Origin: Microvirga vignae
GTDB taxonomy: Bacteria > Pseudomonadota > Alphaproteobacteria > Rhizobiales > Beijerinckiaceae
Direction: 5' to 3'
Assembly: GCF_001017175.1 (NCBI RefSeq)
Contig: NZ_LCYG01000003.1
Coordinates: 1-64,000, forward strand
Length of the DNA: 64,000 nucleotides
Made by a program: the position numbers and the translations under genes. Below, one piece after another: positions 11,072-57,202 of the stretch; positions within the stretch are counted from its first letter, which is position 1; each line of letters opens with the position of its first letter. Below the pieces are notes generated by a model that saw only the letters and a program-made list of their open reading frames with translations, had not been told where the DNA came from and ran no database searches.

Positions 11072-11524
11072 ATGAGCACCCGTGCCCTCAGGAAAGAAGA
11101 AGAAGAAAACCTCCTTCGCCGTGCAGACGATCTGTGCCGTCAGAACAATCTTCGGCTGACGCCGATCCGTGAGCGGGTTTACCGCGAGCTGGTTCAGAGC
11201 GGCGGCCCCGTGGGAGCCTACGATCTCGTAGACCGTCTCAGCAGCGACAAGAAGCGCCTGGCTCCGGTCACGATCTACCGTGCTCTCGACTTCTTGCGCG
11301 ATGCGGGCCTCGTTCACCGCCTCGCCACGCAGAACTCCTACGTGGTCTCCCATGGTCAGCCTGAAGTGAACGCCATGAAGATCATGTTCGTGGATTCCAA
11401 GACGGGCGAGACCATCGAGGTCCACTCCACGGAAGTGGCCGAAGCCGTTCGCAAGGCGGCCGAGCAGGCCGGCTTCAAGTCGATCTCGCCCTTCATGGAA
11501 GTTGAAGGCGAACTGGCCCGCTAG
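11072..11524 (+). CDS. Fur-fold regulator lacking metal-binding residues
   Basis: A 150-residue protein with a clear Fur-type winged helix (RLTPIRERVYRELVQSGGP, APVTIYRALDFLRDAGLVHRL, about 26-90). The C-terminal half has none of the expected metal ligands: there is no CxxC, no HHH cluster and only one Cys (in LCRQN near the N-terminus). The linker to the dimer domain is intact in length. It may be a metal-independent DNA-binding paralogue of the Zur-like protein 200 bp upstream, or may sense something else. The ATG at 11072 follows AGGAG. Its TAG stop (11522-11524) is formed by the left end of a repeat element. Confidence 0.85.
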   Translation: MSTRALRKEEEENLLRRADDLCRQNNLRLTPIRERVYRELVQSGGPVGAYDLVDRLSSDKKRLAPVTIYRALDFLRDAGLVHRLATQNSYVVSHGQPEVNAMKIMFVDSKTGETIEVHSTEVAEAVRKAAEQAGFKSISPFMEVEGELAR

Positions 11525-11672
11525 AGCATCGGACCCAAAAGTGGAATGCACTTTTGAGTCCAATGCTCCCTTGTTTAACTGCGCATCGTTGAAAGCGGAA
11601 AACCGGGTTCAACTTTTCGCTGACGTGGCCCTTCGGGTCACTGGCGCGAACCTTCGGTTCCGCAGGATGCGC
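11522..11672. repeat. Two-module palindromic intergenic element (copy A)
   Basis: Module 1 (11522-11569) is a near-perfect palindrome beginning TAGAGCATCGGACCCAAAAG and ending with CAATGCTC. Module 2 (11581-11672) runs from GCGCATCGTT to GGATGCGCC and contains the shared core GGAAAACCGGGTTCAACTTT. The same two modules recur at seven other loci in this window. The element resembles Rhizobiales intergenic mosaic (RIME-type) repeats. It separates the Fur-like gene from the RND pump gene and supplies the former's stop codon. Confidence 0.85.
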
Positions 11673-11783
11673 CAAGGCCTGTTTCACTGAATACGAGAAA
11701 GGCGAAGGCCCTGGTCGCCTCCGCCTTTTCTCTTTGGGCGGCATCATGAAAAAGGTGGGGCAAAGCTGCCCGACCTTTTCTTT

Positions 11784-14700
11784 CTACTCCGCTGCCAGAG
11801 CCTGATGGTGAGCGCGTGTCTCGCTCGCCCTCCCGCTCCGCACGGTTTCCCTGGATATGTAGGTGTAGAACATCGGCACCACGAAAAGTGTGAAGATCGT
11901 GCCGATGGACATACCGGCTGCAATCACGAGACCCATGGAGAAGCGGGCCGCCGCACCCGCGCCGCTGGCATAAAGCAGCGGAGCGACGCCAAGCACCATG
12001 GCGGCCGTGGTCATGAGAATCGGGCGCAGACGGACGCGGGCGGCTTCCTGAATCGCCTCACGTTTGCTGACGCCATGCTTCGCCTTCAGATCGTTGGCGA
12101 ATTCCACCATCAGGATGCCGTGCTTGGTGATCAGGCCCACCAGGGTGATCAAGCCCACCTGGGTGTAGATGTTGAGCGTCGCCAGACCGAGATTCAGGAA
12201 GATCATGGCGCCGAATACGGAGAGCGGAACCGACATCATGATGATGAACGGATCACGGAAGCTCTCGAACTGCGCCGCCAGCACCAGATAGATCACGATG
12301 ATGGCGAGACCGAAGGCGAGCAGAATCGAGCTACCTTCCTGCACCTCGAGACGGGACTGGCCGGCATAATCCTCATAGAAGCCCTGAGGCATGACCTCCT
12401 GCGCGATGGAGCGCAGGGTGGCCAGACCTTCGGATGTGGTCACGCCGGGCAGAGGCAGCGCCGAGATGGTCGCGGCATTGAGCTGATTGAACTGCTCGAT
12501 GGATGCCGGCGCGGCGTCCGTCGTGATGCTTACCAGAGCGGAGAGCGGCACCATGGAGCCGTCGGACGCCCGCACATAGTACTGGCCCAGCAATTCGGGG
12601 TTCAGACGATCAGACTGACGAACCTGGCTCACCACGTCGTAGCTGCGATTGTCTCGATCGAACTTGGAGATCGGAGCGCCGCCGACGAGCGCGCCGAGCG
12701 TGGTGCCGATCTCGCTCACCGGCACGCCAAGGGCCGCCGCGCGGTCGCGATCGACCGTGATGCGCGCACGAGGCGTCTCGTAAGAAATCGAGTTCTGCAC
12801 GACGATGAACTTGCCGGACTTCTGCGCGCGCTGACGCACCTGCTCGGCAACCTCGTAGGCCTGCGACGGATCGCCGATGGTGCGCAGCACGTACTGGATC
12901 GGCAGGCCGCCGCCTGCGCCCGGGAGAGACGGAGGTGCGAAGACGAAGGCCTGGACACCGCCGTTCTGATCCAGAAGATTCTGGATCTCCTGCTTGGTCT
13001 GCGCTCCCTTCTTCGCGCGCTCGTCCCACGGCTTCAGCTTGAAGCCCACGAAGCCGCCGCCGCCGCCATCGATGCCGACGATGAGGAAGCTCGCGTCGAT
13101 CTCAGGAATCTTCTCGGCAGCCCCCGTGAACTGCTTCGAAAATTCCTGCGTGTAATCCGCGGTCGCGTATTTCGGCGCGTTGACGAGACCGAGATAGGCG
13201 CCCTGATCCTCTTCCGGCGCGAGTTCCGAGGGGGTCTTCGAGAACAGGAAGCCTGTCGTCGCAAGCAGCACCAGCACGATGATAAGCGTGACCCAGCGAT
13301 AATCCAGCGAGCCCTTCAGGCGACGCCCATACCAGTTCTCGAGTCGCGTGAACGTACGGTCGACGAAGCTCGCGAACCGGCTCTGTGCCGCGTGAGGCTT
13401 CAGGAGCTTCGAGGACATCATGGGCGAGAGCGTCACCGCGATGATGCCCGAGATGATCACCGAGCCGGCCAGCGTGAAGGCGAACTCGCGGAAGAGCGAA
13501 CCCGTCAGGCCTTGCGTGAAGCCGATGGGCGCATACACCGCCGCCAGCGTGATCGTCATGGACACGATGGGAAGGAAGATTTCCTTCATGCCTACGATGG
13601 CCGCATCGACGGGTTTGAGTCCTTCCTCGATGTGACGGTGGATGTTCTCCAGCACCACGATGGCGTCGTCGACCACGAGACCGATGGCGAGCACCATCGC
13701 CAGCAGGGTCAAGAGGTTGATCGAGTAGCCCAGCGCAAAGAGGAAGAAGCACACGCCGACGAGCGAGAGCGGGATCGTGACGATCGGGATCAGCACCGAT
13801 CGGAAGGAGCCTAAGAACAGCAGAATCACGATCACGACGATGAGCGCAGCTTCGCCGATGGTCTTGAACACCTCTTCGATGGAGGCCGAGATGAAGTCTG
13901 ACGCATCGTAGACGATCTGCACCGTCATGCCTTTGGGCAGGGTCGGACGGATGCTTTCGATCTCCTTGGTCACTTGATCGGCAACCGTAAGCGGGTTGGC
14001 AGACGGTGTCGGCGTGACGCCGATGAAGGTGCCTTCCTTGCCGTTGAAGCTCACCTTCACATCGGTGCTTTCCGGACCGAGCTCCACATCGGCCACGTCG
14101 CGCAGACGCACGACCTGATCGCCATTCGAGCGGATCGGCAGCGCGCCGAAAGTCTCGGGCGTCTGCAACGTGGTCTGCATCTGCAGCGAATAGGCCACGT
14201 ATTCGTTCTGGGTCTTGCCGGGTGCAGCGAGGAAGTTGTTGGCGCCGATGGCCTGCACCACGTCGCCCGCGGTCACACCGCGTGCAGCGAGGCGTACGGG
14301 ATCGATCCAGACGCGCATGGCGAAGTCGCGCCCGCCCAGGATTTCGGCGTTGCCGACGCCTTCGAGCGTGGCAAAGCGCGGCTGCACCACGCGGGTGAGG
14401 AATTCCGACACCTGTTCGGGATTCATCTCCGTGCTTGCGAAGGTGATGTACATGAGGGCGAAGGTCTGGCCTGTGCCCTTCACGATCACCGGATCCTCAG
14501 CCTCGGAAGGAAGCTGCGCGCGCACCTGCTGCACCTTGGCGGTGACTTCGGTGAGCGCCGCGTTCGGGTCCGTGTTCAGGCGCATGCGCACGGACACCGT
14601 GCTCACGCCGAGGCGGCTCTGCGTGGTGACGTAATCGACACCTTCAGCGCTCGATACCGACTTGGCGATGGGCGTGCTGATGAAACCCTGGATCAGGTCG

Positions 14701-14867
14701 GCGCTCGCGCCCGTATAGGCCGTGGTGATCGTGATCGTGGTTTCCTCGACCTCAGGATACTGACGCACCTGAAGGCTCATCAGACCCTGCGCACCGAGCA
14801 ACAGGATCAGGAGGCTCACCACCATCGACAAAACGGGGCGGCGTATGAAAAGTTCTGTGAAACTCAT
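11784..14867 (-). CDS. RND multidrug efflux transporter, inner-membrane pump
   Basis: A 1027-residue hydrophobe/amphiphile efflux (HAE1) pump of the AcrB/MexB superfamily. The N-terminus FIRRPVLSMVVSLLILLLGA is TM1. Two large periplasmic loops lie between TM1-TM2 and TM7-TM8, with 12 TM segments overall. The TM4 proton-relay acidic pair is present in LAIGLVVDDAIVVLENIHRH. It works as a trimer with the adaptor encoded 11 bp upstream and an outer-membrane channel not encoded here. Substrates cannot be deduced. The divergent TetR gene probably controls the pair. Confidence 0.96.
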   Translation of the reverse strand: MSFTELFIRRPVLSMVVSLLILLLGAQGLMSLQVRQYPEVEETTITITTAYTGASADLIQGFISTPIAKSVSSAEGVDYVTTQSRLGVSTVSVRMRLNTDPNAALTEVTAKVQQVRAQLPSEAEDPVIVKGTGQTFALMYITFASTEMNPEQVSEFLTRVVQPRFATLEGVGNAEILGGRDFAMRVWIDPVRLAARGVTAGDVVQAIGANNFLAAPGKTQNEYVAYSLQMQTTLQTPETFGALPIRSNGDQVVRLRDVADVELGPESTDVKVSFNGKEGTFIGVTPTPSANPLTVADQVTKEIESIRPTLPKGMTVQIVYDASDFISASIEEVFKTIGEAALIVVIVILLFLGSFRSVLIPIVTIPLSLVGVCFFLFALGYSINLLTLLAMVLAIGLVVDDAIVVLENIHRHIEEGLKPVDAAIVGMKEIFLPIVSMTITLAAVYAPIGFTQGLTGSLFREFAFTLAGSVIISGIIAVTLSPMMSSKLLKPHAAQSRFASFVDRTFTRLENWYGRRLKGSLDYRWVTLIIVLVLLATTGFLFSKTPSELAPEEDQGAYLGLVNAPKYATADYTQEFSKQFTGAAEKIPEIDASFLIVGIDGGGGGFVGFKLKPWDERAKKGAQTKQEIQNLLDQNGGVQAFVFAPPSLPGAGGGLPIQYVLRTIGDPSQAYEVAEQVRQRAQKSGKFIVVQNSISYETPRARITVDRDRAAALGVPVSEIGTTLGALVGGAPISKFDRDNRSYDVVSQVRQSDRLNPELLGQYYVRASDGSMVPLSALVSITTDAAPASIEQFNQLNAATISALPLPGVTTSEGLATLRSIAQEVMPQGFYEDYAGQSRLEVQEGSSILLAFGLAIIVIYLVLAAQFESFRDPFIIMMSVPLSVFGAMIFLNLGLATLNIYTQVGLITLVGLITKHGILMVEFANDLKAKHGVSKREAIQEAARVRLRPILMTTAAMVLGVAPLLYASGAGAAARFSMGLVIAAGMSIGTIFTLFVVPMFYTYISRETVRSGRASETRAHHQALAAE

Positions 14868-14878
14868 GGCGTTTTTGC

Positions 14879-16012
14879 CTATTGCCCGTTTGCGAGCTTG
14901 GTCGCGTCGAGCTTCGTCACGTCAATGGTGTTGTCGATCTTCACCGTCGAGCCGGCCTGCAGCTTGTTCTGCCCCGAAGCCACGACCTGCTGACCGGGCG
15001 TGATGCCGGAGAGGATCTCGAGCGTGCCCCCGCGGCGGCGGCCGGTTTTCACGAAAACCTGTTTGACCACCTGAACCTGGTTGCCGGCCCGTTCTTCCTG
15101 CTCGATCGTGTAGACGTAGTCGCCGTAGAGGCTGGTGATAACCGCCGTCTGTGGCACCGTAATGACGTTGGGCTGCTCCGGCAGGATCACTTCGACGTGG
15201 AGGAACTGCCCCGGCAGGATGGCCCTGTTCTTGTTGTCCTCGATGAGAGCCTGCACTGAGACGAGGCGCGTCTTCGGATCGACGCGCGGATCCTTACCTG
15301 TCACGCGCCCCTTGTAGGGAAGATCTGCCTCGCTCACGCCCACTCGCACGTCCTGGCCGAGCTTGACGTCGTCCGCCAGCTGTTCAGGAACCGTGAAGTC
15401 GACCTTCATGGAATCGAGATCCTGGAAGCTTGCAATCACCGATCCAGGTTGGAGATATTGTCCGACATCGACCCGCGGAATGCCGATCACACCCGAGAAG
15501 GGCGCCTTCAGGGCCTTCTGCTCAAGGGTGGCTTCCAAGCGCGCAAGGCGCGAACGCGCCGCAGCAAGCACGGCGCTCGCCTGATCGAAATTGGCTTCGG
15601 TGCCGAAGCCGCGCGACGACAGCGTCTTGGCGCGTTCGAAGGCGCTCTCGGCCGTCTTCACAGCCGCCTGAACGTCCTGAATGTCCGCGCGCTCGACGGT
15701 ATCGTCGAGTTGGACGAGAACATCGCCCTCGCGGACGTTCTGGTTGGCCTTGAACTTGATTTCCTTGACGATGCCAGCCGTCTCGAAGGCAAGCTCGACG
15801 CCGTTCGCCGCCTTGGCGGTGCCGATAGCAGCAATGCTCGGCGTCCAGCTCCTAGCCTCCACCTTGGCAGCCGATACCGTTTGCGCCGGGGGCTTCATGT
15901 TGGCAAAGAACTGAGTGATCATCTTGTCCCGGAAGATGTTGAACCCGATCAGCCCGGCACAGAGCAAGATCGCGAAAAGGAAGACGAGACTGACTACGAT
16001 GCGCCGTTTCAT
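14879..16012 (-). CDS. RND efflux periplasmic adaptor (membrane fusion protein)
   Basis: A 377-residue HlyD/AcrA-type adaptor bridging the RND pump and an outer-membrane channel. It starts MKRRIVVSLVFLFAILLCAG, a signal anchor without a lipobox. A lipoyl-like half-motif (ELAFETAGIVKEIKFKANQNVREGDVLVQLD), an alpha-helical hairpin rich in Ala/Arg (about 110-160), a second lipoyl half and beta-barrel (KVDFTVPEQLADDVKLGQDV) follow. The ATG at 16012 begins the canonical membrane anchor; an upstream extension to 16156 would cross the divergent promoter and is rejected. It is the first gene of the efflux operon. Confidence 0.95.
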   Translation of the reverse strand: MKRRIVVSLVFLFAILLCAGLIGFNIFRDKMITQFFANMKPPAQTVSAAKVEARSWTPSIAAIGTAKAANGVELAFETAGIVKEIKFKANQNVREGDVLVQLDDTVERADIQDVQAAVKTAESAFERAKTLSSRGFGTEANFDQASAVLAAARSRLARLEATLEQKALKAPFSGVIGIPRVDVGQYLQPGSVIASFQDLDSMKVDFTVPEQLADDVKLGQDVRVGVSEADLPYKGRVTGKDPRVDPKTRLVSVQALIEDNKNRAILPGQFLHVEVILPEQPNVITVPQTAVITSLYGDYVYTIEQEERAGNQVQVVKQVFVKTGRRRGGTLEILSGITPGQQVVASGQNKLQAGSTVKIDNTIDVTKLDATKLANGQ

Positions 16013-16119
16013 GGGCTTTTTCCGAGAGTTAGGACCCGCAAGGCGGGCTACAGACTTGTAAGATGAAGGTGCGGCATTAGCGCAACTTACTATTGACGCG
16101 AATGCCGTGGCATCATTTA

Positions 16120-16139
16120 TATACCGACTGGACGGTTTA
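16120..16139. promoter_or_regulatory. Putative TetR operator in the efflux divergent promoter
   Basis: TATACCGAC (16120-16128), TG, GACGGTTTA (16131-16139) form a 20-bp palindrome with 7 of 9 matching positions per arm. It lies 17 bp before the TetR start codon and in the 143-bp gap to the divergent adaptor gene. Position and size fit a TetR-family operator controlling both directions. Confidence 0.6.
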
Positions 16140-16155
16140 GTTGCAAGAGTTGCCA

Positions 16156-16725: not shown

Positions 16726-16736
16726 GCCCTTAAGCT

Positions 16737-17909: not shown

Positions 17910-17914
17910 GAAAA

Positions 17915-18721: not shown

Positions 18722-18753
18722 CGCCCTTTCCTTTCTGAGAAGAATGCCTGCTC

Positions 18754-22483: not shown

Positions 22484-22620
22484 GAGCATCGAACCCAAAA
22501 GTGGACTTGCACTGTTGGGATCGATCCGATGCTCAGTCTGTAGAGGTGCGCATCGTTGGTTGCGACGCGAAGGGCCGCGCTAGCGAAAAACCGGGTCCAC
22601 TTTTCCGCACGATGCGCTAG
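22484..22620. repeat. Two-module palindromic intergenic element (copy B)
   Basis: Module 1 runs from GAGCATCGAACCCAAAAGTG to GATCCGATGCTC (22484-22534). Module 2 runs from GCGCATCGTT to CGATGCGCTAG (22549-22620) and includes the core AAAACCGGGTCCACTTTTCC. It ends in CTAG; the TAG lies in frame with a headless coding remnant that starts at the next base. Confidence 0.85.
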
Positions 22621-26693: not shown

Positions 26694-27710
26694 ATGGCTC
26701 TTGTCGAAATTGAAAATCTGTCGGTCGAATTTCCGACCCAAGGCGGCATCATGCGTGCCGTGGACGGCGTGAGCCTCAAGCTCGAAGAGGGCGAGGTTCT
26801 CGGCGTCGTGGGCGAATCCGGTTCCGGCAAAAGCGTGACGATGCTGGCCCTCATGGGCCTCATCCCCTTCCCCGGCCGCGTGAGGGCCGACAAGCTCACC
26901 TTCAACGGCCGCGACCTCCTGACAATCTCCGAGAAGGAGCGACGCAAGCTCACGGGCAAGGACGTCGCCATGATCTTCCAGGAGCCGACCACCAGCCTGA
27001 ACCCGTCCTTCACCGTCGGGTTCCAGCTCACCGAGACACTGCGCCTGCATGAGGGCATGGATCGCAAGGCGGCTGAGCGCCGGGCCATCGAGCTCCTCAG
27101 CCAGGTTGGTATTCCCTCGCCGGAAAGCCGCCTCTCCGCGTATCCGCACCAGCTCTCCGGCGGCATGAACCAGCGCGTCATGATCGCGATGGCGATTGCG
27201 TGCAATCCGAAGCTTCTGATCGCGGACGAGCCCACCACCGCTCTTGATGTGACGATTCAGGCGCAGATCCTCGATCTGCTCATGAATCTGCAGAAGGAGC
27301 GCAAAATGGGCCTCGTCATGATCACGCACAACATGGGCGTCGTCGCCGACACCGCTCAGCGCGTGATGGTGATGTATGCGGGCCAGATCATGGAGGAGCG
27401 CTCCGCTGCCGACCTCTTCGCCTCACCGCAGCACCCCTACACCGCAGCGCTTCTCGCTGCGCTCCCCGAGCGCAGCGAAGGCGGACGTCTTGCGACGATC
27501 CCCGGCGTGGTGCCCGGTCTCTACGATCGTCCGAAGGGCTGCCTGTTCAGCCCGCGCTGCGCCTATGCCACCGAGCATTCGCGCAATGTGCGGCCCGAGT
27601 TGCGTCCCTGGGCCAGTGGCCATATCCGCTGCCATTACCCGCTCGGCGATCCGAACCGGAACGCCGCCATCCATCACGATCATCCCCTAAAGACGGAGGC
27701 CGCGTCGTGA
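26694..27710 (+). CDS. Peptide ABC importer ATPase 1 (DppD-like)
   Basis: A 338-residue ATPase. Walker [10 protein letters not shown] (about 40-48), Q-loop [10 protein letters not shown], signature LSGGMNQR, Walker [13 protein letters not shown] and switch His ITHNMG are all present. The C-terminal oligopeptide/dipeptide transporter domain (about 240-320) holds Cys residues in [10 protein letters not shown] and RCHYPLG. In some OppD/DppD proteins such cysteines bind an Fe-S cluster, so that is possible here. It overlaps the next ATPase gene by 4 bp and should heterodimerise with it. Confidence 0.94.
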
Positions 27711-28690
27711 GCGCTCCCGTTGTTGAAGCCAAGAACCTGAAGCAGATCTACAAGATCAAGCGCGGCCTCTTCAAGGAACCCGCTCAGCTGCAGGCTGTCG
27801 GCGGCATCACGTTTTCCATCGAGCCCGGCAAGACGCTGGCCGTCGTGGGCGAATCCGGCTGTGGCAAGTCCACGCTTGCCCGCATGGTGACCCTCATCGA
27901 AAAGCCGACGGAGGGACAACTCTCCCTCGATGGCATCGATGCGGTGAACCCGCCGTCGAACTACGCCAAGGAGCTGCGCCGCATGGTGCAGCTGGTGTTC
28001 CAGAATCCTTACGGCTCGCTCAACCCGCGCAAGAAAGTTGGCACGATCCTGGAGGAGCCGCTCGTCATCAACACCAGCCTCTCCTCGGCCGAACGCAAGG
28101 AGCGGGTGCGCGCGATGATGGCGAAGGTGGGCCTGCGTCCCGAGCACTACAACCGCTATCCGCACATGTTCTCCGGCGGCCAGCGCCAGCGTATCGCGAT
28201 TGCGCGCGCGCTGATGCTCTCGCCGAAGCTCGTGGTGGCGGACGAGCCGGTCTCGGCGCTCGACGTGTCGATCCAGGCGCAGGTGCTGAATCTTCTCGCC
28301 GATCTGCAGCAGGAGATGGGTCTCGCCTATCTCTTCATCTCGCACGATCTCGGCGTCGTCCGGCACATCGCCCATGACGTGCTCGTCATGTACCTTGGCC
28401 ATGCGGTCGAGCATGGGCCGAAGGAGAAGATCTACGCCCGTCCGCTGCATCCCTATACGCAGGCGCTTCTCTCCTCCACGCCCGGCATCACTGGCGTGAA
28501 ACGCAAGCGCATTGTGCTGAAAGGCGAGCTCCCCTCGCCTCTCAACCCGCCGAAGGGTTGCGTGTTCTCGACACGCTGCCCCTATGTGACGGATCGCTGC
28601 AAGGTGGAACGCCCACAGCTTCGCGAGCTCGACGGCCGGCAGGTCGCCTGCCACTACGCCGAGAACTTCCTGAAGGAACAGGCGGCTTAG
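27707..28690 (+). CDS. Peptide ABC importer ATPase 2 (DppF-like)
   Basis: A 327-residue ATPase, partner of the DppD-like protein. Walker [11 protein letters not shown]-loop [10 protein letters not shown], signature FSGGQRQR, Walker [13 protein letters not shown] and switch HDLGV are intact. The C-terminal domain repeats the Cys pattern ([22 protein letters not shown]). It is the last gene of the five-gene dpp-like operon. Its TAG stop (28688-28690) belongs to the left end of a repeat element. Confidence 0.94.
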
Positions 28691-28783
28691 AGCATTTTCC
28701 GGCGAAGTGGATCCGGTTCGCCGTCAGAAAATGCGGCAGAACAACGAAGAGAGCCGATTCCACCCCAGTGGAAACGGCTCTAA
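28688..28783. repeat. Palindromic intergenic element, variant (copy C)
   Basis: A variant of the window's repeat family: TAGAGCATTTTCCGGCGAAG ... CAGAAAATGCGG (28688-28737) followed by a second dyad GAGCCGATTCCACCCCAGTG ... GGCTCT (28751-28781). It lies between the convergent DppF-like and AI-2E-family genes, can fold into two stable hairpins, and may serve as a bidirectional transcript end. Its first TAG is the stop of the upstream gene. Confidence 0.75.
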
Positions 28784-30992: not shown

Positions 30993-31772
30993 ATGTCGCT
31001 CACGAGACGCAGCCTTCTGGTCGGTGCGGCTCTTGCCGCCTCTTCCCCTCTTCATGCCCAACAGGACCAAGCCCAAAAGATGCCGGTGACGGAGAAACGC
31101 AACACCTTCACGAGCGGTGGCAAGACCATTGCCGTCGAGACCTTTCAGGCTGCCGGCGGCGCAGCCCGCCCTTCCGTGCTCATGCTGCACGGTGCGGACG
31201 GGTTGAGCTACAACACGGAGTATCGCCAGGGTGCTCGGGGCGTGGCCGCAGCCGGCTATCAGGTGCACCTTGTCCATTACCTGGACCGCACAGGCGAGAA
31301 GCGGGCCTCCTTCGCCACCCTGTTCCAGAACTTCATGCCCTGGATGAACACGGTGCAGGATGCGCTGACCTTTGCGTCCAACCACCCTGGAGCGGATGCA
31401 AGCCGCATCGGCATCATCGGCATTTCGCTGGGTGCGGCGCTCGGCCTCGCCGTCTCTTCGACAGACCCGCGCGTGAAGACGCTCGTGAACTATTTCGGTC
31501 CTCTGCCCCAGGGCGCGGTTGCCACCACCTCGCGCCTGCCGCCGACCCTGGTTCTGCACGGCTCAGCCGATCCCATCGTGCCGGTGGCGAACGCCTATGC
31601 GGTTGAGGCACTGCTACGCCAGCAGAACGTGCCGCATGAGGTGAGGGTCTATCCAGGCCAGGGCCACGGCTTCCGGGGAGCGGCGGAAAAGGATGCCACG
31701 CAGCGGGCGCTCGCCTTCCTGCACCGTCATCTGGCCGGCGCCGACACGGCGCCTCTTCCGATGGGCGGCTAG
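30993..31772 (+). CDS. Exported dienelactone-hydrolase-family alpha/beta hydrolase
   Basis: A 259-residue alpha/beta hydrolase. The N-terminus MSLTRRSLLVGAALAASSPL has a twin-Arg followed by a hydrophobic stretch and AQQ, so Tat or Sec export to the periplasm is likely. Catalytic triad: nucleophile Ser in GIIGISLGAALG (a GxSxG where true dienelactone hydrolases have Cys), Asp in GSADPIVPV, His in GQGHGF. The oxyanion region is LMLHGADGL. The ATG at 30993 begins the signal peptide; the frame extends further upstream through the divergent promoter and is not used. Substrate unknown. Its TAG stop lies in a repeat element. Confidence 0.88.
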   Translation: MSLTRRSLLVGAALAASSPLHAQQDQAQKMPVTEKRNTFTSGGKTIAVETFQAAGGAARPSVLMLHGADGLSYNTEYRQGARGVAAAGYQVHLVHYLDRTGEKRASFATLFQNFMPWMNTVQDALTFASNHPGADASRIGIIGISLGAALGLAVSSTDPRVKTLVNYFGPLPQGAVATTSRLPPTLVLHGSADPIVPVANAYAVEALLRQQNVPHEVRVYPGQGHGFRGAAEKDATQRALAFLHRHLAGADTAPLPMGG

Positions 31773-31887
31773 AGCCTCGGACAAGAAAAGTGGACTTGCG
31801 CTCTTGGGATCGATCCGATGCTCCCTTCATAGAGCAGCGAATCGTCATGCGCGGAAAACCGGGTCCACTTTTCCGCACGATGCGCTA
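31770..31887. repeat. Two-module palindromic intergenic element (copy D)
   Basis: Module 1 begins TAGAGCCTCGGACAAGAAAA and ends ATCGATCCGATGCTC (31770-31823). Module 2 runs from GAGCAGCGAATCG to CACGATGCGCTA (31831-31887) with the core GGAAAACCGGGTCCACTTTT. It supplies the stop codon of the upstream hydrolase gene and ends 40 bp before the M3 peptidase start. Confidence 0.85.
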
Positions 31888-43860: not shown

Positions 43861-45099
43861 ATGACAAATCGACCCGATCTCACCCTCGGCCGCCGCGTGA
43901 TGGCGATGATCGAGGATCTGGCCCGGCATACGGACGAGTATGGGAGCCTGACGCGTCTCTATCTCTCGCCCGCCCATCGCGCCGCAGCCGATACGACGCT
44001 GGAGTTCATGCGCGAAGCCGGGCTCAAGGCCCATATCGACGCGCTCGGTTCCGTGGTGGGCCGCCTGGACGGCGCCAATCCGGAAGCGCCTGCCCTCCTC
44101 ATCGGCTCCCATATCGATACGGTCGTGGATGCCGGCCGCTATGACGGCAATCTCGGCGTCGTGCTCGGCATCGTCGTGGCCGAGGCCCTGAAGGCTGAAG
44201 GCCTTACGCCCTCCTGTCCCATCGAGATCGTGGCCTTCGGGGACGAGGAGAATGTCCGCTTCCCCACCAATCTCTCCACGTCTTATGCTCTTGCAGGGCG
44301 CTACGATCCGGCCTGGCTCGACGGCAGGGATGCGAACGGCATCAGCTTACGGGATGCGCTGCTCGAATTCGGCGGCGACCCTCTCGGCATCGCAGCCCTG
44401 GCGCGCGACCCGGCGCGTTACCGCGGCTATCTCGAAGTGCATATCGAACAGGGTCCGCAGCTCGAGGCGCGCAACCTTCCCGTCGGCATCGTCTCTGCCA
44501 TCAACGGCATCACCCGCGCCCGCGCCTATGTGATCGGCGAGGCGGGACACGCGGGCACCGTGCCGATGAACATGCGTCGCGATGCGCTGGCAGCGGTTGC
44601 CGAGATGATCGGCATCGTGGAGCGCGCAAGCTCCACACGTCACGACACGGTCGCGACCGTGGGCGTGGCCCAGGTGCAGCCCGGTGCGATCAACGTCATT
44701 CCGGCACGCGTCGATTTCACGCTCGATGCCCGCTCGCCCGACGATGCGGTGCGCCATGCCATGGTGCAGGACATCGTCACCGAATGCGAGGCCGCCGCTC
44801 AGCGGCGCGGCGTCTCGCTTACGCTCGAGCCCTTCATGGAATCGCCCGCCACACCCATGGACAAGGATCTCATGGCGCAGTTGGAAGAAGCCGTGAAAAG
44901 TTTACGCATCGAGCCGATGCGCCTTGTCTCGGGCGCGGGGCACGATGCGGTGGCCATCGCGAACCTCTGCCCGGCCGCCATGCTGTTCGTGCGCTGCAAG
45001 GGCGGCATCAGTCACAACCCGGCCGAGTCGATCACGCTCGAGGATGCGGACACGGCGGCCCGCGTCTTGTTTCAGGCCGTCAAAAGGATTGTCGCTTGA
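43861..45099 (+). CDS. M20-family Zn-dependent amidohydrolase (allantoate/N-carbamoyl amino acid type)
   Basis: A 412-residue enzyme of the hydantoinase/carbamoylase (AllC/AmaB/HyuC) group. Metal ligands are in GSHIDTVVDAGRYDGNLGV (His and bridging Asp), GDEENVRF (the Glu pair), EVHIEQGPQLE (His) and ISHNPAES (His). The dimerisation domain is in the middle (GEAGHAGTVPMNMRRDALAA). It hydrolyses a ureido or N-acyl compound, releasing ammonia, CO2 or an amino acid. The next gene, an acetyltransferase, overlaps its stop by 4 bp (TTGA). Confidence 0.9.
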   Translation: MTNRPDLTLGRRVMAMIEDLARHTDEYGSLTRLYLSPAHRAAADTTLEFMREAGLKAHIDALGSVVGRLDGANPEAPALLIGSHIDTVVDAGRYDGNLGVVLGIVVAEALKAEGLTPSCPIEIVAFGDEENVRFPTNLSTSYALAGRYDPAWLDGRDANGISLRDALLEFGGDPLGIAALARDPARYRGYLEVHIEQGPQLEARNLPVGIVSAINGITRARAYVIGEAGHAGTVPMNMRRDALAAVAEMIGIVERASSTRHDTVATVGVAQVQPGAINVIPARVDFTLDARSPDDAVRHAMVQDIVTECEAAAQRRGVSLTLEPFMESPATPMDKDLMAQLEEAVKSLRIEPMRLVSGAGHDAVAIANLCPAAMLFVRCKGGISHNPAESITLEDADTAARVLFQAVKRIVA

Positions 45100-45536
45100 A
45101 CTTCCATCTCGAGCTTCTCCCGAAGCCGCACTCCATCGTCCGCCAGATCATTCTCAACGGCCTCAGCGACTTCAATCGCAACGCTTTCATGCCGGATCTG
45201 AAGACCGAGGATCTGGCTGTCGTCATCCGCGCCGTCGACTCCAGGACCATCGTCGGCGGGTTGTGGGCTCATACCGGTTGGGAATGGCTGACGATCGAGC
45301 TGATCTTCGTGCCGGAGAGCCTGCGCAAGCAAGGGATCGCGCGCAGCCTGATCGCGATGGCGGAGAAAGAGGCCATCAGGCGCGGGTGCCATTCCGCGTG
45401 GCTCGACACGCTCAACTCTGAGGCTCTCGCTCTCTACGAGCGGCTTGGATACGGGTGCTTCGGCGAACTCAAGGATTTTCCGAAAGGCTCGAGCCGTTTC
45501 TTCCTGCAAAAGAAGCTCGCTGCTGAGGTTTCTTAG
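45096..45536 (+). CDS. GNAT-family N-acetyltransferase
   Basis: A 146-residue acetyltransferase. The acetyl-CoA-binding motif A is LIFVPESLRKQGIARSLIAM (R-x-x-G-x-A), followed by motif B LNSEALALYERLGYGCFGEL. A TTG start at 45096 overlaps the preceding stop codon (TTGA) and has AAAAGGA seven bases upstream, which makes this start convincing despite being non-ATG; the frame further upstream lies inside the M20 gene. It is probably co-translated with the amidohydrolase. Substrate unknown. The TAG stop (45534-45536) is the left end of a repeat element. Confidence 0.85.
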   Translation: MNFHLELLPKPHSIVRQIILNGLSDFNRNAFMPDLKTEDLAVVIRAVDSRTIVGGLWAHTGWEWLTIELIFVPESLRKQGIARSLIAMAEKEAIRRGCHSAWLDTLNSEALALYERLGYGCFGELKDFPKGSSRFFLQKKLAAEVS

Positions 45537-45694
45537 AGCATCGGATGAGAAAAGTGGACCTGCACTTTTGGAATTGATCCGATGCTCTCTTCATAGAGCA
45601 GCGCATCGTTCGGGGCGGAACCGGAGGTCCGCGTCAGCGACCCGAAGGGCCGCGCTAGCGAAAAATCGGGTCCACATTTCCGCGCGATGCGCTA
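45534..45694. repeat. Two-module palindromic intergenic element (copy E), stop codons at both ends
   Basis: The longest copy. Module 1 begins TAGAGCATCGGATGAGAAAA (45534) and ends GATCCGATGCTC (45585). Module 2 spans GAGCAGCGCATCG to GCGATGCGCTA (45597-45694) and includes an internal GGTCCGCGTCAGCGACCCGA segment. The left TAG ends the rightward GNAT gene; the right CTA is the TAG stop of the leftward GNAT gene. The element thus exactly fills the gap between two convergent genes. Confidence 0.9.
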
Positions 45695-46207
45695 GCCGCG
45701 CCAATCCTCCGAGAGGACGGCCCACCGCTCGTGATCACGCCATTCGCCATTGATCTTGAGATAACGCGGCGAGTAGCCCTCCTGCCGGAAGGCGAGACGC
45801 TTCACGAGCGCGCGTGACGGCTCGTTGCCGGGCTGGATGTTGGCTTCCAGGCGATGGAGCCCGAGTTCGTTGAAGGCATGTGTCACCACGAGGCCAACAG
45901 CCTCGCTCATCAGGCCGCGTCCATTCATGCCCGCAACGGCGTAATAGCCCATATACGCATTCTGAAAGAAGCCGCGCACGATCTCGCTGAGGTTGATGAC
46001 GCCGACGATCCTGTTGCTCGCGCGCTCGCGCGCGATGAATCCAACGGATCTGTCTCCATCGCAACGGGAGAGATAGCCCTGGAAACTTGCAAGATCGCGG
46101 CAGGGCGACACCCATGGTTCATGCAGCGCAAGGCTCGCGAGATTGGCCGAGACCAGTTCGGGTCCATCGGCCGACCGGACATGGTTGATGATAACGCGCG
46201 GCTGCAT
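45692..46207 (-). CDS. GNAT-family acetyltransferase, RimJ/RimL type
   Basis: A 171-residue GNAT protein of the ribosomal-protein-acetyltransferase-like group. It shows GFIARERASNRIVGVINLSE, the acetyl-CoA motif YYAVAGMNGRGLMSEAVGLV and the C-terminal HRLEANIQPGNEPSRALVKR, all typical of RimJ/RimL. The ATG at 46207 has AGGGATG upstream; earlier in-frame ATGs (46216, 46234) lack a fitting site. Targets may be protein N-termini or small molecules. Its TAG stop is the right end of the adjoining repeat element. Confidence 0.88.
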   Translation of the reverse strand: MQPRVIINHVRSADGPELVSANLASLALHEPWVSPCRDLASFQGYLSRCDGDRSVGFIARERASNRIVGVINLSEIVRGFFQNAYMGYYAVAGMNGRGLMSEAVGLVVTHAFNELGLHRLEANIQPGNEPSRALVKRLAFRQEGYSPRYLKINGEWRDHERWAVLSEDWRG

Positions 46208-46284
46208 GCTATTCATCCCTATTTCAGGAACCATGACTTAGACATTGAAGTTGTCGTCCGTCCCTTGCAACGAAAGATAGGATC

Positions 46285-48641: not shown

Positions 48642-49721
<1,080 letters not shown>

Positions 49722-49820: not shown

Positions 49821-49841
49821 GACGCGCGAAGCTCGCGCGTC
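49821..49841 (-). other. Hairpin at the end of ugpE
   Basis: GACGCGCGA (49821-49829), AGC, TCGCGCGTC (49833-49841): a perfect 9-bp stem right at the ugpE stop codon in the ugpE-ugpC spacer, without a T-run. It may protect the upstream message or lower ugpC expression. Confidence 0.5.
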
Positions 49842-51566: not shown

Positions 51567-51635
51567 CGCGCTACGGTTGTCCGGTGATGGTGCAGATGAC
51601 GGCATCAACCGGTCTGCGAGGTTGCCTCATAAGAT

Positions 51636-51666
51636 CATCCCGGACAGCGTTCGGCTGCCCGGGATG
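51636..51666 (-). other. Intercistronic hairpin between ugpB and ugpA
   Basis: CATCCCGGACAG (51636-51647) pairs with CTGCCCGGGATG (51655-51666), 12 bp with one wobble, loop of 7. In the ugp transcript no T-run follows it. Such hairpins after binding-protein genes commonly stabilise the upstream message so that binding protein exceeds permease. Confidence 0.6.
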
Positions 51667-51688
51667 AAAAATCGTTCGTCAGTCAGGC

Positions 51689-52993: not shown

Positions 52994-53062
52994 CATAATC
53001 ATCTCTCCCATATCATCCCTCAGGGATGTTATTGTCGTTCACCATCCCCGCGCGAAAGCTGG

Positions 53063-53091
53063 ATGACGTTTTAATGACACATCCATGACAA
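53063..53091 (-). promoter_or_regulatory. Pho box (three direct repeats) upstream of ugpB
   Basis: Read on the minus strand: TTGTCAT (53091-53085), GGAT, GTGTCAT (53080-53074), TAAA, ACGTCAT (53069-53063). These are 7-bp repeats with an exact 11-bp period, matching the PhoB-binding consensus CTGTCAT-N4-CTGTCAT with an additional third repeat. The site lies 70 bp ahead of ugpB, which is PhoB-controlled in other proteobacteria. It predicts induction on phosphate starvation. Confidence 0.85.
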
Positions 53092-53203
53092 TCATAGCCG
53101 GCTTCAAAATGGAAGCCCTTTTCATTGAAAAGACTTAACAACTGGGGATGGGAACAGGCCGGAAGTGCTCGTCGTTGACGGAGTATCCAAAGGTAAGAAG
53201 CCC

Positions 53204-53950
53204 ATGCCCCAGATGATTACAGCCCTTTTTAAGGACCCCGCTCAGGCCCGTCAGGCGCTTCAGGCGCTCTTGGAAATGGGAATCGCCCAGCACCGGATCG
53301 TCGCGGTGGGCACCGAGGACGCCCGCGAGATTTCCTCGATCTCCGGCTTTCGAACCCTGTCTGCCCGCGACAACTCCCTGGAAGCCCTCCACGACCTGAA
53401 CCTGCCGGGAGAAGACCTGCGCGTGTTCGAGAAAGGTTTGCGCAACGGCTGCACGATGATCGCCGCCCAGGTCGACCGCAATGACATGGAAGAAGCTGCA
53501 CGGGTGCTGGAGATGTTCGATCCCGTGGATCTCGACAGCAGCAGCCGGGAATGGCTGAAGGCTGGAGAAGAAAAAGCCGGAGAAGAAAAAGCTGGAGAAG
53601 AACTTGGCGCCGGCCCGGGCGCACCTCTGGCCGCGGGCATCGCCGGCGGCGCTCAAGCCGGCCGGACCAATACAGGCTTGCTTCCCGGTATGGGCCTGAT
53701 GGCGGAAGGCACGGATGATCTGGGTAGCGCCGATCTGCGCACGGACGAGACCGGCCAACCGAATGCGGGCGCACAGACCACGGCGGGAACGGGCGCACGC
53801 CGCAGCGACGAACGGGCGGACCGGGAGGGTGTGAACGAACTCGCCGTCGCCTCCCAACCCTCCCCGGATCAGCCCGGCCTGATGCAGCGGCACATGAACC
53901 GCGGCGGCCGGATCTGGGCCTATCGCACCTTCGACGAGGGCACGGTTTAG
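53204..53950 (+). CDS. Stress-type protein with KAGEE repeat and low-complexity tail
   Basis: A 248-residue protein. Residues 1-105 look like the YflT/general-stress-17M-like alpha/beta domain (MITALFKDPAQARQALQALL at the start, then AAQVDRNDMEEAARVLEMF). At about residues 119-133 a pentapeptide occurs three times (KAGEE KAGEE KAGEE), encoded by an imperfect 15-bp tandem repeat. The rest is Gly/Ala/Thr/Asp-rich and probably disordered, ending in GRIWAYRTFDEGTV. The ATG at 53204 is chosen because the domain starts there. The function is unknown. Its TAG stop belongs to a repeat element. Confidence 0.75.
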   Translation: MPQMITALFKDPAQARQALQALLEMGIAQHRIVAVGTEDAREISSISGFRTLSARDNSLEALHDLNLPGEDLRVFEKGLRNGCTMIAAQVDRNDMEEAARVLEMFDPVDLDSSSREWLKAGEEKAGEEKAGEELGAGPGAPLAAGIAGGAQAGRTNTGLLPGMGLMAEGTDDLGSADLRTDETGQPNAGAQTTAGTGARRSDERADREGVNELAVASQPSPDQPGLMQRHMNRGGRIWAYRTFDEGTV

Positions 53951-54057
53951 CGCATCGTGCGGACCCAAAGGGCCGCGCCAAATGATGCGCCGCTTGGAAA
54001 AGGGAGCATCGGATCGAATTCGAAAAGTGGATTCCGCTTTTCTCGTCCGAGGCTCTA
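53948..54057. repeat. Two-module palindromic intergenic element (copy F), inverted, stop codons at both ends
   Basis: Module order is reversed relative to copies A, D and E: TAGCGCATCGTGCGGACCCA to ATGATGCGCC first, then GAGCATCGGATCGAATTCGA to GTCCGAGGCTCTA. The left TAG (53948-53950) ends the stress-type gene; the right CTA (54055-54057) is the TAG stop of the convergent FAD oxidoreductase gene. Confidence 0.9.
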
Positions 54058-55263
54058 GATCACGTTGCGCTCTATCAGCGGACGGTTCGCCAGGACGCGC
54101 TCGTAGCCGAGCTCGGAGAGATCGAGCGTGCGGTACCCACCATGGACGATCAGTTCGGAGAGGCCGCGTCCGACGGCCGGCGCCTGCTGCAGGCCGTGGC
54201 CCGAGAAACCGTTGCAGAGATAGAAGTTCTCGATTTCGTTCGTCGTGCCGATGATCGCATTGTGATCGAGCAGGCTCATGTCGTAGGGACCGGACCAGGC
54301 GCGACCGGGCTTGATGGCCTCGAAGGCGGGAATGCGGTGCGCGAGCGAAGGCCAGATGAATTCCTCGAAGAAGGAGAAGTCGATCTCCTGGCTTGCGGGA
54401 TCCTCGTCGGACCAGTCGGGATCCACATCCGCTTCCGGCGACGCGCCGCAGATGAAGTGGCCCTCGCCTTCCGGGCGCACGTAAGCACCGGAGGTGTCGA
54501 TGAGTAGCGGCAGGTTCTCCACCGGCTCCTTGCACGAGAAGGTGAACACGTAGCGGCGCTTCGCCTGTACCGGAATCGTGATGCCGGCCATCGCGGCAAG
54601 CGCAGCACCACCTGAGCCCGCGCAGTTGATGAGCGTGCCGCAGGCGATGCGCGTGCCGTCCCGCAAGCGCACGGCGACGACGCGGTTACCCTCGCGCTCC
54701 ACTTCCGCGACTTCGCCCTTCACGTATTCAGCGCCGAGCGAACGAGCCTTCTTGCGGAAAGCCTGCAGGAGGCCCCAGCCGTCGAACCAGCCCTCGCCCG
54801 AGCGGCCCCAGGTGCCGGCAGCGAGGTCTTCCACGTTGAGCCAGGGGAAACGCTGCTTCAACTCGTCCGGCTTCAGGAAGAGAATATCCGCGCCTTCCGC
54901 AGCCTGCAGCGCCTGGTTCTCGCGGAGGATCTGCTCGCCTGCTCCGGACGCACAATAGAGATAGCCACCTTCCTTCAGACCGATCTCCGGCTTGTCGCCG
55001 TCGACGGTGAGGTAATCGGCGATGTTGCGCAGGAAGTGGATTCCATAAAGTGAGATGCGGATGTTCACCGCGCTCGAATATTGCTGGCGGATCGAAGCCG
55101 CCGACAAAGCGGAAGCCGACAGCTGATAGGTCGGATCCTTTTCGATGACGATGACGCGCCCCTTGAAACCGGAATCGGCCAGAAGATGGTAAGCGGTGGA
55201 GGAGCCCATGACGGCGCCACCCACGATCACGATATCGGCAATGCTTGAGGCAGAAGTGGTCAT
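54055..55263 (-). CDS. FAD-dependent amino acid/amine oxidoreductase (DAO family)
   Basis: A 402-residue flavoprotein of the DAO/sarcosine-oxidase-beta superfamily. The FAD Rossmann loop is DIVIVGGAVMGSSTAYHLLA; other family parts are SASALSAASIRQQYS, NCAGSGGAALAAMAG, YVRPEGEGHFICGASPEAD and the C-terminal FAD contact NGFSGHGLQQAPAVGRGLSE. It oxidises a secondary or primary amine of an amino-acid-like substrate. It overlaps the Lrp gene by 4 bp (ATGA) and faces a saccharopine-dehydrogenase/aminoadipate-semialdehyde dehydrogenase cluster, so a lysine-derived substrate such as pipecolate is a fair guess. The longer upstream frame is rejected. Confidence 0.88.
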   Translation of the reverse strand: MTTSASSIADIVIVGGAVMGSSTAYHLLADSGFKGRVIVIEKDPTYQLSASALSAASIRQQYSSAVNIRISLYGIHFLRNIADYLTVDGDKPEIGLKEGGYLYCASGAGEQILRENQALQAAEGADILFLKPDELKQRFPWLNVEDLAAGTWGRSGEGWFDGWGLLQAFRKKARSLGAEYVKGEVAEVEREGNRVVAVRLRDGTRIACGTLINCAGSGGAALAAMAGITIPVQAKRRYVFTFSCKEPVENLPLLIDTSGAYVRPEGEGHFICGASPEADVDPDWSDEDPASQEIDFSFFEEFIWPSLAHRIPAFEAIKPGRAWSGPYDMSLLDHNAIIGTTNEIENFYLCNGFSGHGLQQAPAVGRGLSELIVHGGYRTLDLSELGYERVLANRPLIERNVI

Positions 55264-55688
55264 CGTTCGAATTTCGTTGAGAGGATGATGGAGGATTGCG
55301 TGCGCTCCACCCCTTCCAATGCGCCGATCTTGTCGATGGCGGCATCGAGGGTGGGAACGTCTTCCGCCTCTACCACTGCCAGAAGATCGAAGACACCGGC
55401 AACGGAATGAAGCGCACGCAATTCTGGCATGCGCTGCAGCGCCGTGGCAACAGCGGCGGACGCTTTCGGCGCGACGACGATGGTGACATGCGCCCGCACC
55501 ACGCGCCGGCTGATCTCTTCCGCGAGTCTCAATGTATAGCCGACGATCACTCCGCGCCGCTCCAGGCTCTCCACCCGCGCCTGCACGGTCGTGCGGGACA
55601 GCTTGAGGCGGCGGGCGGCTTCCGCATGGCCGATGCGGGCATTCTCCCTCAAGAGGGCGATCAGGGCACGATCCGTGGCGTCGAGCAT
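55260..55688 (-). CDS. Lrp/AsnC-family transcriptional regulator
   Basis: A 142-residue feast/famine regulator. The N-terminal helix-turn-helix is LDATDRALIALLRENARIGH and AEAARRLKLSRTTVQARVE (2-45). The RAM ligand-binding domain follows (VRAHVTIVVAPKASAAVATA, VAGVFDLLAVVEAEDVPTLD). It is translationally coupled to the FAD oxidoreductase and divergent from the catabolic genes at 55939, so an amino acid (lysine or aminoadipate) is the likely effector. ATG at 55688 gives the usual family start; an ATG at 55763 would add 25 residues. Confidence 0.9.
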   Translation of the reverse strand: MLDATDRALIALLRENARIGHAEAARRLKLSRTTVQARVESLERRGVIVGYTLRLAEEISRRVVRAHVTIVVAPKASAAVATALQRMPELRALHSVAGVFDLLAVVEAEDVPTLDAAIDKIGALEGVERTQSSIILSTKFER

Positions 55689-55792
55689 CACTTTGACCAG
55701 TTTTAACGGCAATATGCCGATAACTACTCGGCTTTCCGTCGGCTTGTCTATGGCGCTTTGCATGGCTTTGCCGTTCTCTCCCCTGATCACCG

Positions 55793-55926
55793 GCGCATCG
55801 TGCGGACCCGAAGGGCCACGGCAGTGAAAAGTGGACCCGGTTTTCCGCCTCAAACGATGCGCCTCTCGGAAGAATGAACATCGGATCGGACCCAAAAGTG
55901 GAATCCACTTTTGGGTCCGATGCTCC
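55793..55926. repeat. Two-module palindromic element in a divergent promoter region (copy G)
   Basis: Module 2 comes first (GCGCATCGTGCGGACCCGAA to AACGATGCGCC, 55793-55863). Module 1 follows (GAACATCGGATCGGACCCAA to GGGTCCGATGCTCC, 55876-55926), with a perfect long dyad around AAAGTGGAATCCACTTT. Unlike the other copies it sits between divergent genes and ends 12 bp before the start codon of the saccharopine-dehydrogenase-like gene, overlapping the beginning of that gene's ribosome binding site. Confidence 0.85.
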
Positions 55927-55938
55927 AGGGAGGTTTGA

Positions 55939-57078
55939 ATGACCATGAAATCCATTCTCGTCATCGGCGCCGGCAAGATCGGTTCCACCATCGTCGACAT
56001 GCTCAACGAGACCGGCGACTACGACGTCACGGTGGCCGACGCCTCTGAAGCTGCCCTTGCGGCTGTGGCCAAGAACGGCATCAGGACGATCCAGCTCGAC
56101 TTCAATGACGCGGTGGCCCTGCAGAACGCCCTGAAAGGCCATTACGCCGTGCTGAGCGCCGCGCCCTATCACCTGACCGGCCATGTGGCCCAGGCTGCGC
56201 GCCTTGCCGACGTGAACTATTTCGACCTCACCGAGGACGTCGCCACCACCCGCATGGTGAAAGAGCTGTCGGAAGGCGCCGCCACGGCCTTCATTCCGCA
56301 ATGCGGCCTTGCCCCGGGCTTCATCTCCATCGTGGCGCACGACATCGCAAGCCGCTTCGACAAGCTCGACACGGTGCGCCTGCGCGTCGGCGCGCTGCCC
56401 CAATATCCGTCGAACGCCCTGTCCTACAACCTCACCTGGAGCACGGACGGCGTCATCAACGAGTATATCGAGCGCTGCGAAGCGGTGGTCGACGGCCGCT
56501 TACGCGAAGTGCCCGCCATGGAAGAGCTGGAAGAGTTCTCCCTCGACGGCACCCGCTATGAGGCCTTCAACACCTCGGGCGGTCTCGGCACCCTGTGCGA
56601 AACCCTCGAAGGCAAGGTGCGCAACCTCAACTACAAGACGATCCGCTATCCGGGCCACTGTGCCCTGATGCGTGTCCTCCTCAACGACCTGCAGCTGCGC
56701 AATCGCCGCGAGGTTCTGAAGGACATCCTGGAGAACGCCGTTCCCGCCACCATGCAGGACATGGTAATCGTGTTCGTGACCGTGACCGGCGAGCGCGGCG
56801 GCCGCTATGTGCAGGAAACCTATGCCCGCAGCATCTACGGCCAGAAGGTCGCGGGCGTGCAGCGCACCGCGATCCAGGTGACCACGGCTGCCGGCATCTG
56901 CGCCATGCTCGACCTGCTGGTCGAAGGCAAGCTGCCGAAACAGGGTTTCGTGCGCCAGGAAGAGATCGACCTCGACACCTTCCTCGCCAACCGCTTCGGC
57001 CGCGTCTATGCGGGCGTGCGTCTGGACGAGGCCGGCGAACCGGCCGTGAAGAACATCCGCCTCGACGCCGTTGCATGA
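55939..57078 (+). CDS. Saccharopine dehydrogenase-like oxidoreductase
   Basis: A 379-residue protein of the saccharopine dehydrogenase (Lys9/SDH, glutamate-forming) family. The NAD(P) Rossmann loop is ILVIGAGKIGSTIVDML (5-21); a catalytic-domain stretch reads PQCGLAPGFISIVAHDIASR, typical of SDH-family members. The C-terminal domain ends in RVYAGVRLDEAGEPAVKNIR. In the saccharopine route it would split saccharopine into glutamate and aminoadipate semialdehyde, the substrate of the dehydrogenase encoded next. The ATG at 55939 follows AGGGAGGT. No lysine-2-oxoglutarate reductase is adjacent, so the true substrate is not certain. Confidence 0.85.
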   Translation: MTMKSILVIGAGKIGSTIVDMLNETGDYDVTVADASEAALAAVAKNGIRTIQLDFNDAVALQNALKGHYAVLSAAPYHLTGHVAQAARLADVNYFDLTEDVATTRMVKELSEGAATAFIPQCGLAPGFISIVAHDIASRFDKLDTVRLRVGALPQYPSNALSYNLTWSTDGVINEYIERCEAVVDGRLREVPAMEELEEFSLDGTRYEAFNTSGGLGTLCETLEGKVRNLNYKTIRYPGHCALMRVLLNDLQLRNRREVLKDILENAVPATMQDMVIVFVTVTGERGGRYVQETYARSIYGQKVAGVQRTAIQVTTAAGICAMLDLLVEGKLPKQGFVRQEEIDLDTFLANRFGRVYAGVRLDEAGEPAVKNIRLDAVA

Positions 57079-57154
57079 CGACTTGGGCATGACGATTTGG
57101 AACAGGCTCTTGAGCTTCCACGGCTGAGAGCCCGTCCGGCTTCTTTCCGAAATC

Positions 57155-57202
57155 GCATGATCCTATTCGGGAAAAGCAGTTCCCACATTTTGCGATCATG
57201 CT
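57155..57202. repeat. Palindromic intergenic element, variant (copy H)
   Basis: GCATGATCCTATTCGGGAAA through CATTTTGCGATCATGC forms a large imperfect dyad with the same architecture (outer palindrome, inner GGGAAAAGCAG/TTCCC core) as a widespread Rhizobiales repeat. It lies between the saccharopine-dehydrogenase-like gene and its terminator. Confidence 0.6.

Follow-up and report, generated by a model that had tools for sequence, protein, structure and literature searches.

In Streptococcus pneumoniae, the excerpts cited here describe RUP as a non-autonomous element of ~107 bp which is present in about 108 copies and inserts at TA, and, noting that its ends resemble those of IS630-Spn1 in the same genome, they propose mobilisation by IS630-Spn1 (PMC2229807, PMC3049150). 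In Pseudomonas syringae, the part of the source we draw on presents MITEPsy1 as a 100-nt element with CTAG or YTAA as its target, a 4-nt duplication and ends like those of ISPsy2, which is labelled ‘IS5?’ (PMC3189936). A third point of comparison, again taken from a partial text, is given by the RIME and AB/C palindromes, which are intergenic palindromic repeats of Sinorhizobium (PMC2573895). Here we analysed a 64-kb window (i.e., the whole stretch of DNA under study) on contig C89 of a 6.47-Mb draft genome of Microvirga, a GC-rich soil bacterium (G000; henceforth the home genome), in which we found a repeated, non-coding, two-hairpin insertion with inverted ends and a length of roughly 85-155 bp (distance from end A to end B, 82-155). 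Comparing sequences, we propose that this element is a non-autonomous MITE of an IS630-family insertion sequence (IS), which would be moved by the transposase of that IS, would take YTAR as its target and would rebuild the stop codons on which it lands; we put the probability of this reading at roughly 0.8.

The initial annotation of the window had described eight loci as variants of one palindromic family with two modules in either order, and seven of their ends as stop codons of flanking genes. All seven coincidences proved exact (11524, 28690, 31772, 45536 and 53950 on the plus strand; 45692 and 54055 on the minus strand), and six of the eight loci are copies of one element. Copies in A-B arrangement lie on the plus strand at 11522..11672 (TA at 11522-11523, element at 11524-11672, right TA decayed to CA), 22484..22619 (element at 22484-22617, right TA at 22618-22619, left TA decayed to TC), 31770..31887 (TA at 31770-31771, element at 31772-31885, TA at 31886-31887) and 45534..45694 (TA at 45534-45535, element at 45536-45692, TA at 45693-45694). 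Copies in B-A arrangement lie on the minus strand at 53948..54057 (TA at 53948-53949, element at 53950-54055, TA at 54056-54057) and 55793..55925 (TA flanks decayed on both sides). Both arrangements are therefore present as had been described, but they are a single asymmetric A-B element seen in its two orientations. The TAG codons at 11522-11524 and 31770-31772 are the stops of the plus-strand genes at 11072-11524 and (as called) 31080-31772, respectively. The copy at 45534 stops both of the convergent genes around it (plus strand, 45096-45536, with TAG; minus strand, 45692-46216, with TAG on that strand), as does the copy at 53948 (plus strand, 53165-53950; minus strand, 54055-55230), and the copies at 22484 and 55793 stop no gene.

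The other two loci fall outside this family. The plus-strand element at 28688..28782 (TA at 28688-28689, element at 28690-28780, TA at 28781-28782) belongs to a separate, analogous family of the same design, with two hairpins between TA followed by GAGCATTTTCCGGCGAAGTGG and GGAAACGGCTC followed by TA; it begins GAGCATTTTCCGG..., and the TAG at 28688-28690 is the stop of the plus-strand gene at 27707-28690. This second family occupies 29 places in the genome, with a right end recognisable in 24, TA on both sides in 19 of these 24 and a YTAR target in 18 of those 19, and 7 of the 28 gene 3′ ends that face it coincide with an element end. The palindrome GCATGATCC... at 57155..57205 (no strand assigned) is unrelated: it has no TA at its left end and is found at the same position in six relatives. 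It ends in GATCATGC, is followed by a terminator-like hairpin at 57207-57230 and lies upstream of a gene called at 57343, and the stretch 57155-57230 has the appearance of a regulatory or terminator region that is fixed in place rather than of a recent insertion. The motif CTAG is scarce in the window (22 occurrences in 64 kb, where base composition predicts ~230), and 7 of the 22 are found at the edge of or inside an element. At the Rfam gathering score, the sole match in the window was to the suhB/mmgR sRNA family, at 2520-2594.

In its anatomy, one copy runs from a first TA through GAGCATCGGAC..., hairpin A, ...GATCCGATGCTC, a spacer, GCGCATCGT..., hairpin B (with a variable interior) and ...ACGATGCGC to a second TA. 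The ends of the element are GAGCATCGG and, as reverse complement, GCGCATCGT, which gives short inverted ends of the form G-A/C-GCATCG. Its 135 scored copies have the features that define a MITE, i.e., they are short, repeated and non-coding with inverted ends. These copies were collected from the home genome with two search patterns, which found 64 and 110 places (the second pattern being evaluated among the matches listed, 100 of 110), while reversed control sequences gave no match for either pattern. The matches formed 152 clusters, from which we obtained 137 scored copies with both ends, or 135 after removal of two duplicates. The left search pattern included TAG (with up to 3 mismatches allowed), so that the left flank is biased, a bias that affects neither the right flank nor the IS copies; the gene ends used throughout are predictions of a codon-score caller trained on 237 ORFs.

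We found a TA flank at 99 of 135 left ends and, on the right side, which lay outside the search pattern, at 96 of 135, with 73 copies carrying both. Where TA was present on both sides, the rebuilt target was YTAR in 70 of 73 copies (CTAG in 43, CTAA in 14 and TTAG in 13; other in 3), and flanks other than TA were mostly TG or CA (10 and 9 on the left, 12 and 10 on the right). The base inside the right TA was C in 95 of 96 copies and the base before the left TA was variable (C in 80, T in 16 and other in 3 of 99), which limits the duplication to TA itself. A 4-bp duplication was also considered and rejected: in 13 out of 13 cases a T before the left TA is paired with C at its right counterpart. 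The insertion preference at gene ends that had been suggested for the window is thereby supported and sharpened to a preference for YTAR with a 2-bp TA duplication.

Across the genome, 157 gene 3′ ends face an element end, and 64 of them stop exactly on the terminal TAR, none at 1-4 bases from it, 12 at 5-10 bases upstream and 2 inside the element; the coincidence is above what random placement next to genes would give, the level at which the suggestion of the initial annotation would have been refuted. With only 2 of 157 genes ending inside the element, truncation in random frames is ruled out as the source of these stops. Exact coincidence was found on both sides (32 of 84 at the right end, i.e., outside the search pattern, and 32 of 73 at the left end), and of the 135 copies, 55 provide the end of one gene or more and nine the end of two. 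Where a gene stops at an element end, the codon is TAG in 57 cases and TAA in 7, with TAA found where the element end begins with A. We also turned to the PLSDB gene table for 11 Microvirga plasmid loci, 4 of them without table entries for the stretch and 1 without recognisable ends; among these plasmids, one of 5 facing 3′ ends lies exactly on the element (JO965_RS45950, with its stop at 1626-1628 of locus L480) and the other 4 do not.

To establish which came first, the stop or the element, we compared orthologous sites in the two closest of the genomes used, G015 (about 90-91% identity in a 10-kb test region) and G004 (80-88%). We looked for empty sites at the window copies and at 50 of the 52 stop-type copies outside the window, and both flanks could be mapped in one or both relatives for 52 copies (45 of 55 stop-type copies and 7 others). 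Exact empty sites, in which the two flanks overlap by exactly 2 bp, were found in 25 copy-by-relative cases, with TA as the core in 16, TG in 3, CA in 3 and another dinucleotide in 3. Two of the six TG or CA cores come from C109:1829, a single copy that is itself without TA, and for cores other than TA a mutation in the target or in the relative has to be supposed. Among stop-type copies there were 22 exact-empty entries (19 copies), a further 21 near-empty entries and 32 that were occupied or filled in some other way. One exact-empty entry was dropped for its poor junction alignment, and the 21 readable cases provided 28 end-by-relative comparisons on 26 distinct ends, two ends being counted in both relatives.

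A stop codon was already found at the same position of the empty relative in 25 of the 28 comparisons (23 of 26 distinct ends), which means that the element mainly lands on an existing stop, duplicates its TA and adds the third base. These 25 stops comprise 13 TAA, 8 TAG and 4 TGA; of the 13 TAA, 10 correspond to TAG in the home genome and 3 to TAA still. The question raised by the initial annotation, whether empty orthologues end at the same TAG, thus has a divided answer: they mostly end at the same place, but with TAG in only 8 of 25. At five sites (C123:88617, C42:10404, C68:250670, C92:23002 and the window copy at 53948), the empty relative has a single YTAR that serves two convergent genes as their stop, and the copy in the home genome has split it. 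For the 53948 copy, the empty YTAG common to both stops is found in G004, G003, G006 and G011. The corresponding site of G015 (L117) has kept hairpin A and is missing hairpin B; by this alignment, the hairpin modules can be lost separately. Two cases run counter to the trend: C79:211150 has no stop at its empty site, and at 45534 the site is exactly empty in G015, where the rightward gene is 13 residues longer. TGA is found in the empty relative at three window sites, namely the leftward gene at 45534 (G015), the 31770 site (empty in G004 and occupied in G015) and the site of the second-family element at 28688 (empty in both relatives, each with TGA), and there a change to TAA or TAG would have to have preceded insertion. 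The copy at 55793 is missing from G015 and G004.

Some target sites appear to have been used more than once. Copies shared in the same orientation at orthologous sites are up to 0.96 identical. At three sites the relative carries a copy in the opposite orientation at the same TA (C152:15842 and C68:161029 in G015, the window copy at 11522 in G004), and the members of these pairs are 0.79-0.80 identical after turning, with a mean of 0.82 (sd 0.05) for unrelated copies. The simplest reading of these identities is that each of the three pairs would reflect two independent insertions. In-place inversion of a shared copy was rejected, as the opposite-orientation pairs are no more similar than unrelated copies. 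At C109:885, the copy in G015 lies ~20 bases aside and the TA that is occupied in the home genome is empty there, meaning that it is not a same-TA case.

Whether target choice alone accounts for the stop coincidences bears directly on an alternative in which selection keeps elements as clean gene-end cassettes of a stop and a hairpin, the stop being the contribution of the element. As a null we took the proportion of non-genic YTAR sites that are stops, from 20 relative loci and stretches of the home genome in which elements had been masked, and matched it for core and for the directions of the neighbour genes. Of 69 copies, 39 were on a stop vs. 22.0 expected, an excess that plain target choice leaves unexplained and that leaves room for selection favouring copies at stops. 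In convergent gaps, CTAG showed no excess (9/16 vs. 7/13) and CTAA/TTAG did (11/14 vs. 9/22, p 0.04), and in co-directional gaps both were in excess (CTAG: 13/20 vs. 18/66, p 0.003; CTAA/TTAG: 6/11 vs. 38/192, p 0.015). Two further observations are in line with a cassette: 2 of 19 exact-empty copies seem to create or move a stop (C79:211150 and the rightward gene at 45534), and, with respect to a possible role of RNA structure, changes on both sides of the hairpin A stem number 31 vs. 7.0 expected if they were independent, next to 133 one-sided changes, although the copies are related to each other. Against it, the empty relative already has the stop in nearly all comparisons, the stem changes are mostly uncompensated (71 outer-only, 62 inner-only and 21 paired), and none of the 15 terminator-like sites between 44000 and 58000 falls within the three elements there; on the last count, we also rejected a reading of the element as an intrinsic terminator. 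We therefore consider the cassette unlikely, and selection for elements that end genes, which the initial annotation had offered as its second option, is not the main cause of the pattern even if the excess leaves it a part. Masked CTAG sites lie inside genes in 110 of 217 cases and scored copies inside a called gene in 1 of 137 (a gene that an insertion had broken into halves may have been missed here). Part of the excess would be accounted for if copies that interfere with a downstream start are lost, and a transposase that favours gene ends may also lie behind it. The stop pattern is caused mainly by target choice, probably together with loss of harmful copies.

Two other families of transposase could be proposed as the mobilising enzyme. 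REP/BIME-like repeats, the substrates of a REP-associated tyrosine transposase (RAYT), are likewise small intergenic palindromes with paired hairpins, and the CTAG at the foot of the element is reminiscent of the GTAG-tagged REP described in the consulted part of PMC3733652. However, the end tag here is the duplicated target TA (mostly within YTAR), neither GTAG nor CGTC, the duplication is visible at empty sites, and no Y1_Tnp match was found at E 0.001 in the home draft genome, with the control positive in E. coli, Caulobacter and others; we regard mobilisation by a RAYT as extremely improbable. A transposase of the IS5/IS427 group has somewhat more in its favour, as the home genome has DUF4096 elements of its own with TA-flanked inverted ends (e.g., L062, with CTA before GATCCTCTCTGACGG... 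and a closing TAG). Such ends were, however, recovered at only 3 of 11 DUF4096 loci (AGAGCCCG, GATCCTC and CGGCCTG), with L066 and L067 as candidates and six loci without clear ends, and none of the recovered ends matches those of the element (GAGCATCGG, GCGCATCG), whereas IS630 ends do. This leaves an IS5/IS427 origin improbable, and we return to the IS630-family IS as the candidate driver.

The home genome has 10 matches to DDE_3 (IS630-family). One full copy (L298, 980-2026) has the ends TA-GAGCATTGGAC and TA-AAGCATCGGAC within CTAG, a truncated copy (L300) has TA-GAGCATCGGACGA, and a cousin of these copies (L297) has TA-GAGCAGCGGGC. IS630 itself favours CTAG. When part of the transposase was used as a query, 15 of 31 Microvirga genomes gave strong matches. 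Pairs of such ends 900-1250 bp apart were found at 21 of the 30 loci returned, with TA on both sides in 19 of 21 (18 of which were re-measured); L430 and L442 have no TA on the left, where their ends match weakly (8 of 10) and may be spurious. The IS is about 1,050 bp long and encodes a DDE_3 transposase, and the element encodes none. The similarity between the two is confined to the A end and covers about 11-13 bases (GAGCAYCGGAC), the B end of the element, GCGCATCGTGC, being a poor match to the IS; ends like those of an IS630-family IS of the same genome are thus found for L298 and L300, for the A end alone. Judged by this shared A end and the TA-flanked YTAR target, the IS630-family IS is the probable driver. 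Full IS630 copies coincide with stops at 3 of 22 facing gene ends, i.e., less often than the element. The fetched stretches also contain nine pairs of lone element ends that are spaced like an IS. Of the IS630-family copies, the one whose end matches best, L300 (G000:C105), is interrupted by another inserted sequence, which encodes a protein that we take to be IS110-like.

Under the IS630 reading, the transposase would move the element by cut-and-paste with duplication of TA. Many of the non-genic YTAR sites that are safe to hit would be TAA or TAG stops after a pyrimidine, including those where the stops of two convergent genes overlap by 4 bp. Once the element is inserted, both flanks would consist of TA and the terminal base of the element, mostly G, such that TAG is regained whichever way the element lies, and a pair of genes with one YTAR in common would be pulled apart with both stops kept. 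Copies inside genes would be removed by selection, and copies at stops would persist.

The core of hairpin A (with at most 1 mismatch) is present in 8 of 297 genomes of the order, at 79 places in the home genome, 42 in G262 and at most 6 in each of six others, and it is absent from the 11 genomes sampled from other genera of the same family. G262 comes from another family of the order, and some of its 42 places are 58-59 bases apart; by these matches, this lineage appears to have amplified a related repeat. In five Mesorhizobium records, the core occurs in an apparently single-hairpin form. The composite element matches 13 plasmid records, of which 10 are from Microvirga and none from Sinorhizobium.

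We conclude that this is most probably an IS630-type MITE family, apparently new for Microvirga, which has the unusual habit of landing on stops and rebuilding them. Its distinctive property is the combination of a YTAR target with a terminal G, which turns stop codons into self-renewing sites; the excerpts retrieved from the literature on repeats, MITEs, IS630 and stop codons contain no report of such stop rebuilding. More tentatively, and as a possibility that we hold somewhat less likely than its negation, IS630-type elements that start with G and target YTAR may form a ‘safe-landing’ class for which stops, and above all 4-bp convergent overlaps, are the preferred long-term home, with a slow shift from TAA to TAG and separation of genes as the consequence. 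If this were so, the first base of the terminal repeat should be under selection for G. The rebuilding of stops itself offers a simple, testable explanation of how a compact, GC-rich genome can be filled by a transposon while its genes stay intact: the target is often a stop codon, which the insertion restores on both sides. If general, it would link the end sequence of a transposon to stop usage (TAA to TAG) and to the separation of overlapping convergent genes, and annotators could take a TAG at the edge of a repeat as a genuine gene end.

Among the known systems, RIME and the AB/C palindromes are, like the element, intergenic palindromes of the same bacterial order, the comparison being one of descriptions only, from the part of the source cited above. 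MITEPsy1, as described in its excerpt, has a similar target, but the element duplicates TA only and has IS630-like ends. RUP with IS630-Spn1 is the closest working model, as both RUP and the element are short and TA-inserted with IS630-like ends. The element differs in its GC-rich two-hairpin A-B structure, its preference for YTAR and CTAG, the rebuilding of TAG on both sides and its frequent position at stops, features that go unreported for RUP in the consulted parts of PMC2229807 and PMC3049150. The IS630-family IS of Microvirga (L298, L420-L449) have the start of the A end, the TA flanks and the YTAR target in common with the element.
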